From: Halosimplex rubrum | Lineage (GTDB): Archaea; Halobacteriota; Halobacteria; Halobacteriales; Haloarculaceae | Assembly (NCBI RefSeq): GCF_013415885.1 | Contig: NZ_CP058910.1 | Location: 2,542,001-2,606,000, forward strand | DNA length: 64,000 bases | Direction of reading: 5' to 3' | Part shown: in pieces, positions 29,625 through 37,749 of the stretch | Layout of the letters: each line of letters starts with the position of its first letter | Numbering within the stretch: position 1 is the stretch's first letter | Program-made: the position numbers and the translations under genes | Notes under the pieces: model-generated | The model's database searches: none | Told to the model about the DNA's origin: nothing | What the model saw: only the letters and a program-made list of their open reading frames with translations

Positions 29625-31109
29625 ATGGGCTGGAAGGACACCGCCGAACCGGTACTCACCCGCATGCCCACCGTCCAGCGCCCGGAGGGGCACGTCCCCT
29701 TCAAGCGCAAGCTGGGCTGGACGGCCGGCGTGCTGGTGCTGTACTTCTTCCTGACGAACGTCTTCCTGTTCGGCCTCGGTAGCGGACAGGGCCAGGACCT
29801 CTTCGGCCAGTTTCGTTCGATCCTCGCCGGCGGACAGGGCACGATCATGCAGCTGGGCATCGGGCCCATCGTAACGGCGAGCATCGTGTTGCAGCTGCTC
29901 GGCGGTGCCGACCTGCTCGGCCTCGACACGCAGAACAACCCCCGGGACCAGGTGCTGTACCAGGGACTCCAGAAGTTCCTGGTGCTCGTGATGATCTGCC
30001 TGACGGGCCTGCCGATGGTGTTCGCGGGCTCGTTCCTGCCGGCGAGCCCCTCGCTCGCGCAGTCGTTCCCCGGCGGGACGTTCGGCGTGAAGTGGCTGAT
30101 GTTCGCGCAGATCTTCGTCGGCGGTGTCCTCATCCTCTACATGGACGAGGTCATCTCCAAGTGGGGCGTCGGCTCCGGGATCGGCCTGTTCATCATCGCC
30201 GGCGTCAGCCAGCGACTGATCGGCGGGCTCGTCTCGACGAGCTTCATCGGCAACGAAGGGAACATCGGCATCATCCCCACGTGGATCGGCATCGTCACCG
30301 GCAGCGTCGACGTGGGTCCGATCCTCGGGAGCGGGCTGCAGACGCTCGTCTTCGGCCAGGGACAGATCCTCGCGCTGATCACGACGGTCCTGATCTTCGT
30401 GGTCGTCGTCTACGCCGAGAGCGTCCGCGTGGAGATCCCGCTGTCGAACACGCGCGTCAAGGGCGCCCGCGGTCGCTTCCCGGTGAAGCTCATCTACGCG
30501 AGCGTCCTGCCGATGATCCTCGTTCGCGCGCTGCAGGCAAACCTCCAGTTCCTGGGCCGTATCCTCTACGCCCAGCTGGGTAGCCTGCCCGCGTTGCTCG
30601 GCACCTACCAGGAAGGTGGCGGCGGCGTCGCCAACCCGGTCGGCGGCCTGTTCTACTACATGGCTCCGGTGCGGAACCCCGAACAGTGGATGTGGTGGCT
30701 CGGTCAGACGACCAACGCCCCCTGGCAGATCATGCTTCGGGTCGGCGTCGACCTGACGTTCATGGTCATCGGCGGCGCCATCTTCGCCATCTTCTGGGTG
30801 GAGACCACCGACATGGGGCCGGAGGCGACCGCCCAGCAGATCCACAACTCCGGGATGGAGATCCCCGGCTTCCGCCGCAACACCAGCGTCATCGAGAAGG
30901 TGCTGGAACGGTACATCCCGCAGGTGACCGTCATCGGCGGGGCCTTAGTCGGCCTGCTGGCCGTCCTCGCCAACATGATGGGCACCATCGGGAACGTCTC
31001 CGGGACCGGACTGCTGCTGACGGTCTCGATCACCTACAAGATCTACGAGGAGATCGCCGAAGAGCAGCTCATGGAGATGCATCCCATGATGCGCCAGATG
31101 TTCGGTTAG
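29625..31109 (+). CDS. secY: Preprotein translocase subunit SecY
   Basis: 494-aa channel-forming subunit of the Sec translocon with ten predicted membrane spans: the first about residues 28-52 (LGWTAGVLVLYFFLTNVFLF), the plug region after it, and later the cytoplasmic loop ARGRFPVKLIYASVLPMILV that contacts the ribosome. Ends YKIYEEIAEEQLMEMHPMMR. Co-transcription with ribosomal protein genes is the standard archaeal order. Confidence 0.97.
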   Translation: MGWKDTAEPVLTRMPTVQRPEGHVPFKRKLGWTAGVLVLYFFLTNVFLFGLGSGQGQDLFGQFRSILAGGQGTIMQLGIGPIVTASIVLQLLGGADLLGLDTQNNPRDQVLYQGLQKFLVLVMICLTGLPMVFAGSFLPASPSLAQSFPGGTFGVKWLMFAQIFVGGVLILYMDEVISKWGVGSGIGLFIIAGVSQRLIGGLVSTSFIGNEGNIGIIPTWIGIVTGSVDVGPILGSGLQTLVFGQGQILALITTVLIFVVVVYAESVRVEIPLSNTRVKGARGRFPVKLIYASVLPMILVRALQANLQFLGRILYAQLGSLPALLGTYQEGGGGVANPVGGLFYYMAPVRNPEQWMWWLGQTTNAPWQIMLRVGVDLTFMVIGGAIFAIFWVETTDMGPEATAQQIHNSGMEIPGFRRNTSVIEKVLERYIPQVTVIGGALVGLLAVLANMMGTIGNVSGTGLLLTVSITYKIYEEIAEEQLMEMHPMMRQMFG

Positions 31110-31239
31110 AACCGCCGAACGTCCGGCGACCTTCGACGTCATTCTTTCCGCGCTCGATATCGGCCAGCGACGGCGCCGGCCGCGGCCGAGCGGGACCGAA
31201 CGGCGCCCGCTCGTGTGGCCCGCGTTCGTCGATACCGGT

Positions 31240-31277
31240 CCCAGCTTATTAGTGGGTCCCAGGCAACGGGGGCAAAT
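31240..31277 (+). promoter_or_regulatory. Promoter of the ABC-importer operon
   Basis: A TATA-like cttattagt (31245-31253) lies about 27-33 bases before ATG 31278, consistent with a short leader. It marks the start of a transcription unit separate from secY. Confidence 0.6.
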
Positions 31278-32933
31278 ATGGCACGTGATATCGACAGACG
31301 GGATTTCCTGACGCTAGCCGGGACCGCAGCGGGGGCGGCCGCGGTGGCGGGCTGTTCGGGCGGCGAGGGGACGCCGACGGGGGACGACGGTAGCGGAGGC
31401 GGCGACGGCGACGACGGCGACGACGGCGGAACCGATACCGGGACGCCGCTGCCGGAGCCGGAGACGCGGGTGGGCTACCTCGAACGCGCCAACCGCGTCC
31501 TCAACGAGGAGGTGCCGTGGATCTACCTGAATCGGCAGTACTCGGTGTACGGCAAGTCGGCGGACGTGAACTGGGAGGCGCGCCGGGACGAGCGCATCGA
31601 CGGCTACGCCATCGAACCGACGGGCGACCGGGACTCGGTGCAGATCACCCAGTCGGCCATGGACTCGGGGCTGGACCCCCACGACCACCGCGAGACGCCG
31701 ACGGACAACATCGTCCTGCAGGCCTACGAGGGGCTGCTCTCGCGGGACCGGGAGGGGAAGGTCGTCCAGGAGCTGGCGACGGGGTACGAGCGGCTCGAAC
31801 CGGGCCGGGTGCGGTTCGACCTCCGGTCGGGCGTCTCGTTCCACAGCGGCGACTCGCTGACGAAGGAGGACGTGGCCTTCTCGATCAACCGGATCGTCGA
31901 CCCGGAGGTCGGCGGGCTGGACAGCCCGCAGTCCGACCAGCTGGCGGGCGTCACCGGCGCCGAGCCCGCGGACGGCGACAGCGCCGTCGTCGTCGAGTCC
32001 GAGGGGATCAACCCCGTGGTGTTCGCGCTCTTCGCGACCTACTGCGACGTGATGAACAGGTCGTGGGTCGAGGACAACGACGAGGCGTACATCAACTCCC
32101 ACATGAACGGGACGGGGCCGTTCCAGCTGGCCGAGTACGAGCAGGACGTGTCGGTCACCTACGAGGCGTACGGCGACTACTGGAAGGACGGTGCGCCGGC
32201 CGACGAGCTGGTGATCACGGCCGCGAGCGAGGCGAGCACGCGGGTCAACCAGCTGGTCAGCGGCGAGACGGACGTGATCGTCAACGTCCCGCCCCAGAAC
32301 ATCAGTCAGGTCGACGGGGCGGACAACGCCGAGATCAGCCCGGTACCGAGCACCCGCGTCATCTACAACGCGATGATCTACGACCGGGAACCGTTCGACT
32401 CCGTGCAGTTCCGGCGGGCGATGAACTACGCCGTCGACCTGGAGAGCATCATCGAGAGCGTCCTCTCGGGGTTCGCGGACGCGACCTCCCAGCCGACGCT
32501 GGAGGGCTTTACGGGGTACAACTCGGATCTCGACCCCTACCCGTACGACCCCGAGGAGGCCGAGCGGCTGGTCGAGGAGAGCGGGTACGCGGGCGCGGAG
32601 ATCGAGTTGCACACGCCCAACGGTCGGTACCTGAAGGACCTGGAGATAGCCCAGGCGGTCGTCGGCTACATCGACGAGCTGGAGAACGTCTCGGCGTCGG
32701 TCAACCAGCGTGACTTCGGGAATCTGACGGACGTGCTGCTGGACGGTGACATCACGACGGGCCCGGCCTTCTACCTCATCGGCTGGGGCAACGCCACCTT
32801 CGACGCGAGTCAGACGCTCATCCCGCTGTTGACCTCCGACGGCTCGCTCACGTCCTACAAGAACGACCGGGTCGACGAGCTGATCGACCAGGCCCAGAGT
32901 ATGGGCGGCGGGGAGCCCGGGACCGACAGCTGA
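31278..32933 (+). CDS. ABC-importer peptide-type binding protein, apparently circularly permuted
   Basis: 551-aa lipoprotein of the SBP_bac_5 (DppA/OppA) family. A Tat signal (DRRDFLTLAGTAAGAAAVAG, residues about 6-25) ends in a lipobox Cys (AGCSGG), followed by an Asp/Gly linker. The next ~45 residues (ANRVLNEEVPWIYLNRQYSV) match what is normally the C-terminal end of this family. Only after that comes the usual N-terminal QITQSAMDSGLDPHDHRETP. The protein then stops right after NDRVDELIDQAQSMGG, exactly where that terminal segment would be expected. So the order of segments is rotated relative to the family. The rest (FHSGDSLTKEDVAFSINRIV) is normal. First gene of the importer operon. Confidence 0.85.
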   Translation: MARDIDRRDFLTLAGTAAGAAAVAGCSGGEGTPTGDDGSGGGDGDDGDDGGTDTGTPLPEPETRVGYLERANRVLNEEVPWIYLNRQYSVYGKSADVNWEARRDERIDGYAIEPTGDRDSVQITQSAMDSGLDPHDHRETPTDNIVLQAYEGLLSRDREGKVVQELATGYERLEPGRVRFDLRSGVSFHSGDSLTKEDVAFSINRIVDPEVGGLDSPQSDQLAGVTGAEPADGDSAVVVESEGINPVVFALFATYCDVMNRSWVEDNDEAYINSHMNGTGPFQLAEYEQDVSVTYEAYGDYWKDGAPADELVITAASEASTRVNQLVSGETDVIVNVPPQNISQVDGADNAEISPVPSTRVIYNAMIYDREPFDSVQFRRAMNYAVDLESIIESVLSGFADATSQPTLEGFTGYNSDLDPYPYDPEEAERLVEESGYAGAEIELHTPNGRYLKDLEIAQAVVGYIDELENVSASVNQRDFGNLTDVLLDGDITTGPAFYLIGWGNATFDASQTLIPLLTSDGSLTSYKNDRVDELIDQAQSMGGGEPGTDS

Positions 32934-32976: not shown

Positions 32977-34008
32977 GTGGCGTCGATGGGTCGGTTCCTC
33001 GCGAAACGGGTGATACAGGGGATGGCGGTCGTTCTGGGCGTCGTGACCGTCGTCTTCCTGCTGCGGTACGTGACGCCGGGGAACCCGGTCGACTTCATCG
33101 CGCCGCTGGACGCCAGCCAGGAGACCCGCCGCCGGATCGCCGAGGACCTGGGGTTGAACAGACCGCTGTACCGCCAGTACGTCGACTACGTCGGGGACCT
33201 GTTGACCGGGGACATGGGCTACTCCTACCGGTCGCGGACGCCCGTGCGGCCGCGGGTGCTGGCGAAGGTCCCGGCGACGCTGGAGCTGGCGCTGGCGGCG
33301 ACGCTGGTGGCGGTCGCCCTCTCGATCCCGCTCGGCGTGATCAGCGCGACTCAGCGCCACGGTCCGGCCGACTACGGCGCGACGCTGTTCTCGCTGGTCG
33401 GCATCTCGACGCCGAACTTCTGGCTGGGCGTGATGCTCGTCATCGTCTTCGCGGTGCAGTTCGACGTGTTCCCGACGAGCACCCGTCCGGTCGGCCTGCT
33501 CGACGCCGTCGGCAACCTCGTCGTGGTCGCGGGGCCCGAGCGGGGCTGGGCGCTCCCGCTGGACGCCTCGGGCTTCCTCGCGGACCTGCGGTCGTGGCTG
33601 GCCTACATCACCCTCCCGGCGATCACCCTGGGAACGTACTTCACGGCGCTGATCACGCGGCTGACCCGCTCGGGGATGCTCGACCAGCTGGGGGAGGGGT
33701 ACGTCCGCGCGGCGCGGGCGAAGGGCCTGCCCGAGACGCTGGTGCGGTACCGCCACGCGCTCCGGAACACGCTCATCCCGGTGATCACCGTCGTCGGCCT
33801 CCAGATGGGGACGCTCGTCGGCGGCGCGGTGATCACGGAGGCGGTCTTCGACTGGCCGGGCCTTGGAACGCTCGTCATCGACGCCATCGGCAACCGCGAC
33901 TGGCCGCTCATCCAGGGCTCGCTGGTCGTCATCGGTATCGGCTTCGTGGTCGTGAACATCGTCGTCGACGCGCTGTACGCGACGCTGGATCCACAGGTGA
34001 TGGACTGA
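32977..34008 (+). CDS. ABC-importer permease (DppB-type)
   Basis: 343-aa inner-membrane permease with six predicted spans (first at residues 10-30, AKRVIQGMAVVLGVVTVVFL). It has the binding-protein-dependent permease EAA-like loop ARAKGLPETLVRYRHALRNT that contacts the ATPases. Start GTG 32977 or ATG 32986; the GGGGG tract before the GTG favours the former. The stop overlaps the next permease gene (TGATG). Confidence 0.9.
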   Translation: MASMGRFLAKRVIQGMAVVLGVVTVVFLLRYVTPGNPVDFIAPLDASQETRRRIAEDLGLNRPLYRQYVDYVGDLLTGDMGYSYRSRTPVRPRVLAKVPATLELALAATLVAVALSIPLGVISATQRHGPADYGATLFSLVGISTPNFWLGVMLVIVFAVQFDVFPTSTRPVGLLDAVGNLVVVAGPERGWALPLDASGFLADLRSWLAYITLPAITLGTYFTALITRLTRSGMLDQLGEGYVRAARAKGLPETLVRYRHALRNTLIPVITVVGLQMGTLVGGAVITEAVFDWPGLGTLVIDAIGNRDWPLIQGSLVVIGIGFVVVNIVVDALYATLDPQVMD

Positions 34009-35138
34009 TGGGACGACTCGACACGCTACTCCGGTATCTGAACCCGTGGCGACTCGCCGCGGCGCTCCGCTCGTCGGTGTCGCCGCGGACGAAGCGCAAC
34101 CTCCGCCGGGAGTTCGACCGGAGCCTGCTGGCGAAACTCGGGGTCGTGCTACTGGTCGTGGTCGTCGGGGCGGCGGTGTTCGCGCCGCTGGTCGCGCCCT
34201 GGAACCCGACGAACCAGAACCTCGACAACGAGCAACAGCCGCCGCTGGGCTTCAGTCGCGCCGAGACCCAGACCGGCCAGGAGATGGTCAACGGGTCCCT
34301 GGAGCTCACCAACGAGACGGTCGTCGTCGACGCGACGACCGCCCGTCCGCTGGGGACCGACGGCCTCGGTCGGGACATGCTCTCGCGGGTGATCTACGGG
34401 GCGCGCACGTCGCTGCTGGTCGGGCTGCTCGGGACGACGCTGGCGATGCTGCTCGGCGTGCCGACCGGGCTGGTCTCGGGGTACTACAGCGGGCGGGTCG
34501 ACGACCTGCTGATGCGGGTCGCGGACGTGAGTCTCGCCTTCCCGTCGCTCGTGCTGGCGATCGCGCTGGTGGGGCTGTGGGGCGAGGCGAGCGTCGCCGT
34601 GCCGGACCCGCTCGTGGTGAGCGGGATCGCGCCGGCGATACGCGGGGTGATATCGCTGCCGGGCGGGCTGACCTACCCGACCGGGATGCCGGAGACGTTC
34701 ACGCTACCCGGGACGGTCATCGTCGTGGTCGGGCTGGTCAACTGGGTGTGGTTCGCCCGCGTGGCCCGCGGCGAGGCCCTGGCCGTCCGCGAGGAGGAGT
34801 ACGTCACCGCCGCCGAGTCGCTGGGGGCCTCCGACCGGTTCGTCATCCGCAAGCACGTCCTGCCCAACAGCCTCACGCCGATCCTCGTGTTGGCGACGAT
34901 CCAGGTGGCGGCGATCATCCTGCTGGAGAGCGCCCTCTCCTTTTTGGGCTTCTCGGGGACGACGCTGTCGTGGGGCTTCGACATCGCGCAGGGCCGGGAG
35001 TACCAGACGACCGCGTGGTGGATCGCCGCGATGCCGGGGCTGGCGATCGTGCTCACGGTCATCGGAATCAACCTCGTCGGCGACTGGTTCCGCGACGCCC
35101 TCGACCCCGGTATCGAGGGCGAGGGGGGAGGTGTGTAG
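34008..35138 (+). CDS. ABC-importer permease (DppC-type)
   Basis: 376-aa permease. The first span (residues about 44-66, LGVVLLVVVVGAAVFAPLVA) is followed by an extracytoplasmic domain longer than usual, then the RPLGTDGLGRDMLSRVIYGA motif typical of DppC and the EAA loop AAESLGASDRFVIRKHVLPN. ATG overlaps the previous stop; the stop abuts the first ATPase gene. Confidence 0.92.
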   Translation: MGRLDTLLRYLNPWRLAAALRSSVSPRTKRNLRREFDRSLLAKLGVVLLVVVVGAAVFAPLVAPWNPTNQNLDNEQQPPLGFSRAETQTGQEMVNGSLELTNETVVVDATTARPLGTDGLGRDMLSRVIYGARTSLLVGLLGTTLAMLLGVPTGLVSGYYSGRVDDLLMRVADVSLAFPSLVLAIALVGLWGEASVAVPDPLVVSGIAPAIRGVISLPGGLTYPTGMPETFTLPGTVIVVVGLVNWVWFARVARGEALAVREEEYVTAAESLGASDRFVIRKHVLPNSLTPILVLATIQVAAIILLESALSFLGFSGTTLSWGFDIAQGREYQTTAWWIAAMPGLAIVLTVIGINLVGDWFRDALDPGIEGEGGGV

Positions 35139-36401
35139 ATGGGCGACGCCGACGAGGAGCCGCGTCGCGATGGCGCCCCGAGCGGGACCGACGGCGGCGA
35201 CGGCCGCGACCTCCTGCGAGTCCGCGACCTGTCGACCCGCTTTTTCACGGAGCGGGGGCAGGTCAACGCCGTCGAGTCGGTCGACTTCGACGTGCGCGAG
35301 GGCGAGATCCTGGGGATCGTCGGCGAGTCGGGGTCGGGCAAGTCGGTGACGGCGCTGTCGCTGGTCGACCTCGTGGAGTCGCCGGGACGGGTGACCGACG
35401 GTGAGGTCCGCTATCGCGACCCCGGACTCGCCGAGGAGTTCCCCGACGCCGCCGACGGGGAGATGGTCGACCTCCGGGCGGTCCCCGAGCGCGTGCGACG
35501 AGCGTTGCGGGGGCCGGACTTCAGCATGATCTTCCAGGACCCGATGAGCAGTTTCAACCCGTCGCTGACGGTCGGCGAGCAGATCGCCGAGGCGGTGGAG
35601 GTCCAGCGGCGCGCGAGCGCCCGGCCGCGCTCGACCCGCTCGCGGACTCAGGGGTACGGGCTGGGGTCGTACCTGCTGGACGGGGTGGTCCCCGGCCGCG
35701 ACTACACGGATCCGGAGAGCCGCGAGCGGGCGGTCGAGCTGCTGGACCAAGTCGGGATCCCGGACCCGGCCGAGCGGGTCGACGAGTACCCCCACGAGTT
35801 CTCCGGCGGAATGCTCCAGCGGGCGATGATCGCCCAGGCGCTGGCCGGCGAGCCAGACCTGCTGATCGCCGACGAGCCGACCACCGCGCTGGACGTGACC
35901 ATCCAGGCCCAGATCCTCGAACTCCTCCGGGAGATCCAGGCCGAGCGGGACATGAGCGTCCTGCTCATCACGCACGACCTGGGCGTCATCGCGCGGATGA
36001 GCGACCGGGTCTGCGTGATGTACGCCGGCGAGGTCGTCGAGCGCGGCACGCTCGCGGATATCTTCGAGGACTCGGTTCACCCGTACACGCGGGGGCTGCT
36101 CGGTTCGATCCCGGATCTCGCGGACCCGGCCCGGCGACTGCAGCCGATCGAGGGGTCGGTCCCGAGCCTCCGGGACGCCGAGATGGACGACCGCTGTTTC
36201 TTCGCCGACCGCTGCCCGAAAGCGATGGAGGACTGCCTGGAGAAGCCGCCGGAGTTCGACGCCGGCGGCGAACACGGCGCCAGGTGCGTCCTCGCCGAAC
36301 GCGAGTACAGCGAGGCGGCCGCGCTGCCCGAGGGGTTCTTCGACGACGGGGGCGGCGAAGCGGGGCGGACCGGCGCCGACGGGGGTGAGCGCCGTGAGTG
36401 A
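35139..36401 (+). CDS. ABC-importer ATPase (DppD/OppD-type)
   Basis: 420-aa ATPase. Walker [10 protein letters not shown] (about residue 66), Q-loop [19 protein letters not shown], signature [15 protein letters not shown], Walker [15 protein letters not shown] and the C-terminal Cys-containing oligopeptide/dipeptide transporter domain ([15 protein letters not shown]-like). It has an extra ~30-residue stretch ([20 protein letters not shown]) between the Q-loop and signature. Immediately follows the permease gene. Confidence 0.92.
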
Positions 36402-37749
36402 GCGCGGCCCGCTGCTGGAAGTCGGGGGGCTGAAGAAGCACTACGCGGACGACGACTCGCTGCTGGACCGGTTGCTCGGCGCCGAGAGCCGGAGCGTCAG
36501 GGCGGTCGATGGCGTGAGCTTCGACATCGCCGAGGGGGAGACGCTGGGGCTGGTCGGCGAGTCGGGCTGTGGCAAGTCGACCACCGGCGAGACGCTGCTC
36601 GCGCTGCAGGAACCGACCGCCGGCGACGTGCGCTTCGACGGCGAGTCGGTGTTCGACCGCGACGATATGACGGAGTTTCGACGGCGCGCGGGCGTGGTGT
36701 TCCAGGACCCCTTCTCCAGTCTCGACCCGCGCCAGACCGCGGGCGCCATCGTCACCGAACCGCTCGAGATCCACGGGCTGCCCGAGACGGACCCCGGAGT
36801 CGCGACCGAGGCGGACGTGACCGTCGAAGGGGTAGACCCCGGCCGGGTCGAGATCCGCGTGGCCGACGACGTCGACCTCGTCGTCGATCCGGTCGACGGC
36901 GTCGCGACCGTCCACGTGACCGTTCGGCGGCGCGACGGGGCCGTCTCGGCGTCCGCCGCCGAGGACGTGACCGCGACGGTCGTCGAGGGCGGCGGGGCGT
37001 CGGACGACGCGAGCGGTGGGTCCGGTAGCGAGCCGGTCGTCGTCGAGGTGCGCGTCGACCGGTCGCTCGGCGAGATCCGCCGCGACCGGGCGAAGGAGCT
37101 GCTGGAGCGGGTCGGGCTCTCGGCCGACCAGGTCGACCGCTACCCACACGAGTTCTCCGGCGGCCAGCGCCAGCGGCTCGGTATCGCCCGGGCGCTGGCG
37201 CTCGAACCGGACTTCCTCGTGCTCGACGAACCGGTGAGCGCGCTGGACGTGAGCGTCCAGGCGCAGATCCTCAACCTGCTCGACGACCTGCAGGCGGAGC
37301 TGGGGCTGACCTACCTGTTCATCGCCCACGACCTCTCGGTCGTCCGGCACATCTCCGACCGCGTCGCCGTGATGTACCTCGGCGAGATCGTCGAGCGCGG
37401 CCCGGTCGACGCCATCTTCGAGGACCCACAGCACCCCTACACGCGGGCGCTGCTGGAGAGCGTTCCCCGGGCGGACACCAGCGAACAGGGCCGACGCGTC
37501 GACCCGCTGGCCGGCGACGTGCCCTCGCCGCGGGACCCGCCGGCCGGCTGCCGGTTCCACACCCGCTGTCCTCACGCCCGGGAGGTCTGCCGCGCGGAGG
37601 CGCCCGAGGACTACGACGGCGACGCGAGCGGTCAGCGGGCCGCCTGCTTCCGGCTGGTCGACGACCACCCGTACTGGGAGTCGGAGCCGATCGAGGTCGG
37701 CGCGAGCGCGACGGGCGAGTCGGACGAACCCGCGGCGACGGACGACTGA
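36385..37749 (+). CDS. ABC-importer ATPase (DppF/OppF-type) with inserted domain
   Basis: 454-aa ATPase. Walker [11 protein letters not shown] (residues 58-67), Q-loop [17 protein letters not shown] (104-120), signature [15 protein letters not shown] (257-271), Walker [15 protein letters not shown] (277-290), and a C-terminal zinc-type oligopeptide domain ([14 protein letters not shown]). Between Q-loop and signature, about residues 136-228 form an insertion of strand-rich, acidic sequence ([20 protein letters not shown]) absent from ordinary family members. Overlaps the preceding ATPase by 17 bases. Confidence 0.9.

Follow-up and report, generated by a model that had tools for sequence, protein, structure and literature searches.

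A gene at 31278-32933 of the window (the whole stretch of DNA analysed here, 64,000 nucleotides of the Halosimplex rubrum genome) encodes a substrate-binding protein of 551 amino acids, in which about 60 residues that are usually C-terminal in SBP_bac_5 proteins are found at the front. This raises the question of whether the fold is truly permuted, and if so by which route and how many times the rearrangement arose. As detailed below, the product is a permuted variant within the SBP_bac_5 family of substrate-binding proteins (family 5, cluster C), and I conclude with high confidence that its circular permutation is genuine; that the permutation occurred at least twice in haloarchaea is the less sure part of this reading.

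Sequence analysis and domain organization

A search against NCBIfam profiles places a Tat signal (TIGR01409) at residues 5-24 of the open reading frame, followed by the lipobox AGC, and the Pfam SBP_bac_5 'middle' domain (PF00496) covers residues 161-522, with an E-value of 1.6e-62 and an alignment to profile positions 1-365 of 368. Matches of the 551-residue protein to the NCBIfam profiles for NikA, GsiB and DppA are weak, far under their cut-offs. Behind the signal, lipobox and linker, residues ∼60-113 form the moved segment, PEPETRVGYLERANRVLNEEVPWIYLNRQYSVYGKSADVNWEARRDERIDGYAI; the canonical start, DSVQITQSAMDSGLDPHDH, follows directly, and the chain ends with NDRVDELIDQAQS and ten more residues. 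The canonical N-to-C order of elements is not kept, the last helix and strand coming first. The features of the gene are:

31278-32933, + strand: permuted SBP_bac_5 (DppA/OppA-type) substrate-binding lipoprotein, 551 aa (Pfam PF00496)
31278-31355, + strand: Tat signal peptide (RRDFL) and lipobox AGC, with Cys26 expected to be lipidated (TIGR01409 and inspection)
31356-31448, + strand: Gly/Asp/Thr-rich low-complexity tether linker (read from the sequence)
31449-31628, + strand: moved segment, residues 58-117, the canonical last helix and long strand, now N-terminal (unpermuted orthologues match it at their C-termini with E 2e-19 to 1e-7)
31614-31634, + strand: new joint EPTGDRD, linking the old C-terminus to the old N-terminus (alignment)
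31635-32900, + strand: core, from the canonical N-terminal strand to the penultimate helix (ending VDELIDQAQS), 53-68% identical to the nearer unpermuted orthologues over the same length
32901-32933, + strand: new C-terminus, a short disordered tail (pLDDT) and the stop codon, at the loop where the moved segment belongs

When searched on its own, the segment matches the extreme C-terminus of the unpermuted orthologue L021 with 66.7% identity over 51 amino acids (E 2e-19), that of L019 with 57% over 54 amino acids (E 5.5e-17) and that of L020 with 55% (E 7e-16), and it is still 30-40% identical to the C-termini of distant unpermuted relatives. In G038, a match to residues 119-543 of the query is followed, without a gap, by a match to residues 60-117. 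Core and segment thus lie end to end in unpermuted genes, in the reverse order. The earlier note had read the gene in just this way from its letters, as a Tat lipoprotein signal, then the usual SBP_bac_5 end, then the usual N-terminal part, with the chain stopping where the segment belongs, and this description is borne out in each of its parts.

The unpermuted relatives that the note had proposed to look for do exist. The nearer haloarchaeal ones (e.g., L114, L106 and L019) share the core, the slot before dppB and overlapping tether lengths with the permuted protein, but carry the segment at the C-terminus, like the solved relatives, whereas in the permuted protein it is N-terminal. The key residues of the segment in permuted proteins are those conserved in the unpermuted set, and over ten permuted pairs its dN/dS ratios (0.03-0.34) are close to those of the core (0.06-0.26), indicating that the segment is under purifying selection similar to that on the core.

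Two unpermuted sequences have peculiarities of their own. L153, from a draft assembly, contains a frame change or stop, with the C-terminal segment just past the break; this probably reflects either decay of the copy or an error in the draft. L144, a relative of the divergent permuted group described below, comes from an incomplete genome; about 30 residues are missing where its core begins, and its loop, NLPPGEER, resembles the ends of permuted proteins.

Structural modeling

I compared an AlphaFold model of the permuted protein, built with 49 permuted sequences, to one of the unpermuted L114. Both are confident (pLDDT 89.6 and pTM 0.86 for the permuted protein, pLDDT 95.4 and pTM 0.90 for L114). 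The moved segment is mostly modeled with a pLDDT of ∼75-93, and values under 50 are confined to the last 7 residues. The final elements of L114 (helix 431-448 and strand 451-464) are the first of the permuted model (helix 9-23 and strand 27-39), and the elements from strand 65-70 to helix 475-485 of the latter are ordered as those from strand 6-11 to helix 416-426 of L114, so that the two element lists are a single rotation of each other.

In Foldseek searches, the unpermuted model matches YliB/GsiB (1uqw) with a TM-score of 0.90 over 495 columns and chain F of 8z1z (the E. coli DppABCDF complex) with 0.90. The top PDB matches of the permuted model are all family-5 proteins, with TM-scores of 0.74 over 447 columns (1uqw) and up to 0.77 over 462; as Foldseek is order-dependent, these lower scores are expected, and they do not in themselves prove the canonical placement of the segment. 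By AlphaFold and Foldseek, the product is thus predicted to have the two-lobed cluster C fold, and the models strongly suggest that the moved segment takes its canonical place in it. In DppA/OppA folds, a single lobe contains both the old N-terminal and the old C-terminal elements; the permuted chain therefore most likely folds as the usual two-lobed binding protein, in agreement with the proposal of the earlier note that such a rearranged chain could still fold.

Distribution of the permuted order

The host genome is a single contig of 4.48 Mb, and the closest named relatives identified for it are Halosimplex pelagicum and H. salinum. The same order is present at 51 other loci of the sample, across genera and families and also on the complete H. 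pelagicum R2 chromosome; together with the single contig, this excludes mis-assembly. Among the matches listed, at least 38 of the 392 sampled genomes of the order contain a full-length match with this arrangement. The permuted rows cover the family-level groups f1, f4, f5, f7, f10 and f15, the main permuted form occurring in five family-level groups, and G442 encodes both forms (L083 permuted, L130 unpermuted). The permuted order is therefore old and widespread in haloarchaea.

A profile of the joint region, applied to 295 genomes of the phylum, returned only the two arrangements already known, and tblastn searches with the whole protein and with the joint region found the joint in none of the plasmid records. 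Bacteria were sampled through plasmids and through related loci from the homology search only. One such match, H5 from Haematobacter, starts at query residue 72 and was considered as a permuted candidate; since the gene begins later and runs ∼60 residues beyond the match, it is unpermuted.

Breakpoint, joint and possible DNA routes

Unpermuted proteins have the loop sequence IDEAQS-xxDPxxR-xxLLQEAN, while permuted proteins end in AQSLPG or ARTIPE and start, after the linker, with LPEPETR or LPEDPSR. The permuted proteins are therefore all cut in the loop that connects the last two helices, at positions no more than a few residues apart. In the alignment the new joint is a few residues long, and its length varies among permuted proteins.

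Two general models of circular permutation invoke either a duplication with truncation or a fission with fusion (PMC3320104). The segment is present at both ends in none of the 116 proteins compared, permuted and unpermuted together, and no relics of it were seen either downstream of the permuted genes or within the N-termini of the unpermuted proteins; the traces expected of an origin by tandem duplication, namely double-copy intermediates and relics, were thus absent from this sample. A plain tandem duplication is in any case insufficient, since the protein still begins with signal peptide and linker and the segment is set between linker and core. Candidate routes would be a tandem duplication with deletions or the transposition of ∼180 bp; it may be speculated that the similar 'LP' at the new start and the new end is an overlap left by duplication. 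A difference in tether length was considered as a cause, but the medians from the cysteine to the first element are 40 residues in permuted and 36 in unpermuted proteins, and since the ranges overlap this is not a clear one.

Number of origins

Trees were calculated from 52 permuted and 64 unpermuted rows, classed by the order of segment and core. The permuted rows consist of a main group of 45, which includes the 31278-32933 gene, and a divergent group of 7 (41-46% identical). A single clade uniting every permuted row is rejected on the core in three row sets (p-AU 2.9e-6, 6.0e-5 and 4.8e-7), on the neighbouring dppB (p-AU 3.5e-6) and weakly on the segment alone (p-AU 0.031); neither the main group nor the divergent group, each taken alone, is rejected as a clade on core or dppB. 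The divergent group joins the unpermuted L099, L141 and L143 at 100/100 support. Because the family at large is unpermuted, two gains from an unpermuted ancestor are the simplest account, and these sequence comparisons suggest that the permutation probably took place two or more times among haloarchaea, always in this one inter-helix loop, with both forms replacing the unpermuted one while the operon was kept.

The exact count is less firm. The dppB trees split the main group, although holding it together gives a p of 0.117, and in some trees the divergent rows are not one clade; for these reasons, there may have been a single event with later reversals or, as free trees sometimes split either group, more than two gains. 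A split of the main group in the first quick trees was set aside as untrustworthy, enforced unity having given a better likelihood in one row set.

The main competitor of repeated gain is a single ancient permutation, after which some lineages reverted to the unpermuted order or long-lived double-copy intermediates lost one copy or the other. Both groups are cut in one loop, within a few residues, and their flanks are alike (ELPEPETR and ELPEDPSR at the start, SLPG and TIPE at the end), as a common origin would explain, and with double-copy intermediates the same site could easily yield the same outcome again. I nevertheless regard this scenario as unlikely: it conflicts with the rejection of a single permuted clade on core and dppB (and weakly on the segment) and with the firm union of the divergent group with its three unpermuted relatives, the segments of that group also fall outside those of the main group, several separate reversals would be required, and none of the 116 rows is a double-copy protein.

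Capture of the N-terminal segment from the C-terminus of another binding-protein gene, a convergent replacement as raised for TpMglB-2, appears improbable. Donors exist, since there are many SBP_bac_5 paralogues per genome, but the segment of the main group falls among orthologous unpermuted C-termini, beside L107, L112 and L151, and that of the divergent group has LHQQFSIYG...DED, the signature seen in its own unpermuted relatives; the segment tree thus leans towards placing permuted segments within their own orthologous family. As for chance resemblance, mis-assembly or a degenerate gene, which the earlier note had in part anticipated as a coincidental match or an assembly error, I give such explanations almost no weight: nothing was found in their favour, the matches to real C-termini reach E-values of 2e-19, dozens of independent genomes have this order, and the segment is under purifying selection. 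Genuine permutation, probably on two or more occasions, is accordingly the reading retained here.

Operon context and proposed function

The gene is followed by those of a DppBCDF-type importer:

32977-34008, + strand: DppB-type permease, same operon (NCBIfam Opp2B 1e-92, DppB 7.8e-76)
34005-35138, + strand: DppC-type permease, start approximate (Pfam BPD_transp_1 and OppC_N)
35139-36401, + strand: DppD-type ATPase (NCBIfam 4.5e-96)
36385-37749, + strand: DppF-type ATPase with a ∼90-aa internal insertion (NCBIfam 9.5e-112; ABC_tran and oligo_HPY)

A dppB gene lies directly downstream at 51 of the 53 permuted loci with enough flank, and at 62 of 68 unpermuted loci. Judging from this context, the protein most likely serves the downstream importer as a tethered binding protein of the ordinary kind: it would be exported by the Tat pathway, anchored to lipid via Cys26, capture an extracellular solute, probably a peptide, and hand it over to DppBCDF. 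The chain would run from the tether linker through the moved helix and strand and the joint of a few residues to the old N-terminal strand, ending after the penultimate helix, so that the entry and exit points of the fold would be moved by one helix-strand unit. Because permuted and unpermuted forms fill one operon slot in related genomes, the topology appears to have changed but not the job.

The importer operon directly follows secY (region 29625-31278), with ∼170 bases between. An AT-rich, TATA-like CTTATTA is found ∼30 bases upstream of the ATG at 31278, a position that would fit a leaderless archaeal transcript. The insert in the DppF-type ATPase (about residues 130-225) lies between the Q-loop region and the helices before the signature motif; it has no Pfam match, and is kept in a second Halosimplex species (L038).

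Comparison with known permuted proteins

With the family-5 (cluster C) proteins DppA, OppA, GsiB and NikA (PF00496), the Halosimplex protein shares the sequence family, the two-lobed core fold (as modeled), the role of lipoprotein of a DppBCDF-type importer, and the moved-segment residues R..L..N and PW..L..Q.S.YG....W..R.DE. In those proteins the last helix-strand unit is C-terminal, whereas here it precedes the rest; the lipid tether therefore enters the permuted fold at the former last helix.

Permutation among binding proteins has a precedent. TpMglB-2 (Tp0684) of Treponema pallidum is a tethered, natural circular permutant of a cluster B sugar-binding protein, for which a 'cluster Bc' was proposed, and its authors suggested that tethering may favour permutation (PMC4990184). 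It resembles the Halosimplex protein in being a natural permutant of a membrane-tethered ABC-importer binding protein, common to relatives. However, it has the cluster B fold, with an N-terminal part moved to the C-terminus, while the Halosimplex protein matches family 5 in profile and fold; its permuted part is poorly similar to its counterpart, while the Halosimplex segment is plainly homologous to unpermuted orthologues. Saposin/swaposin and DNA methyltransferases (PMC3320104) represent the same kind of rearrangement, but the haloarchaeal case differs in having both topologies in close orthologues, and apparently two origins at one loop. No report of a permuted family-5 (dipeptide- or oligopeptide-binding) protein was found in the open-access literature searched, and permutation is not discussed in the OpuA paper.

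Profile-based annotation misses the permutation, the gene being called merely a substrate-binding protein. Many natural circular permutants are greatly diverged from their unpermuted relatives. The orthologues compared here come in both topologies, share one operon slot and are 53-68% identical, so that one can test directly how permutation affects folding, stability, ligand binding and handover to the permease. Two origins at one loop, if true, would amount to parallel topological evolution, possibly favoured by a shifted entry of the lipid tether into the fold, and would mean that such a change can be repeatable.
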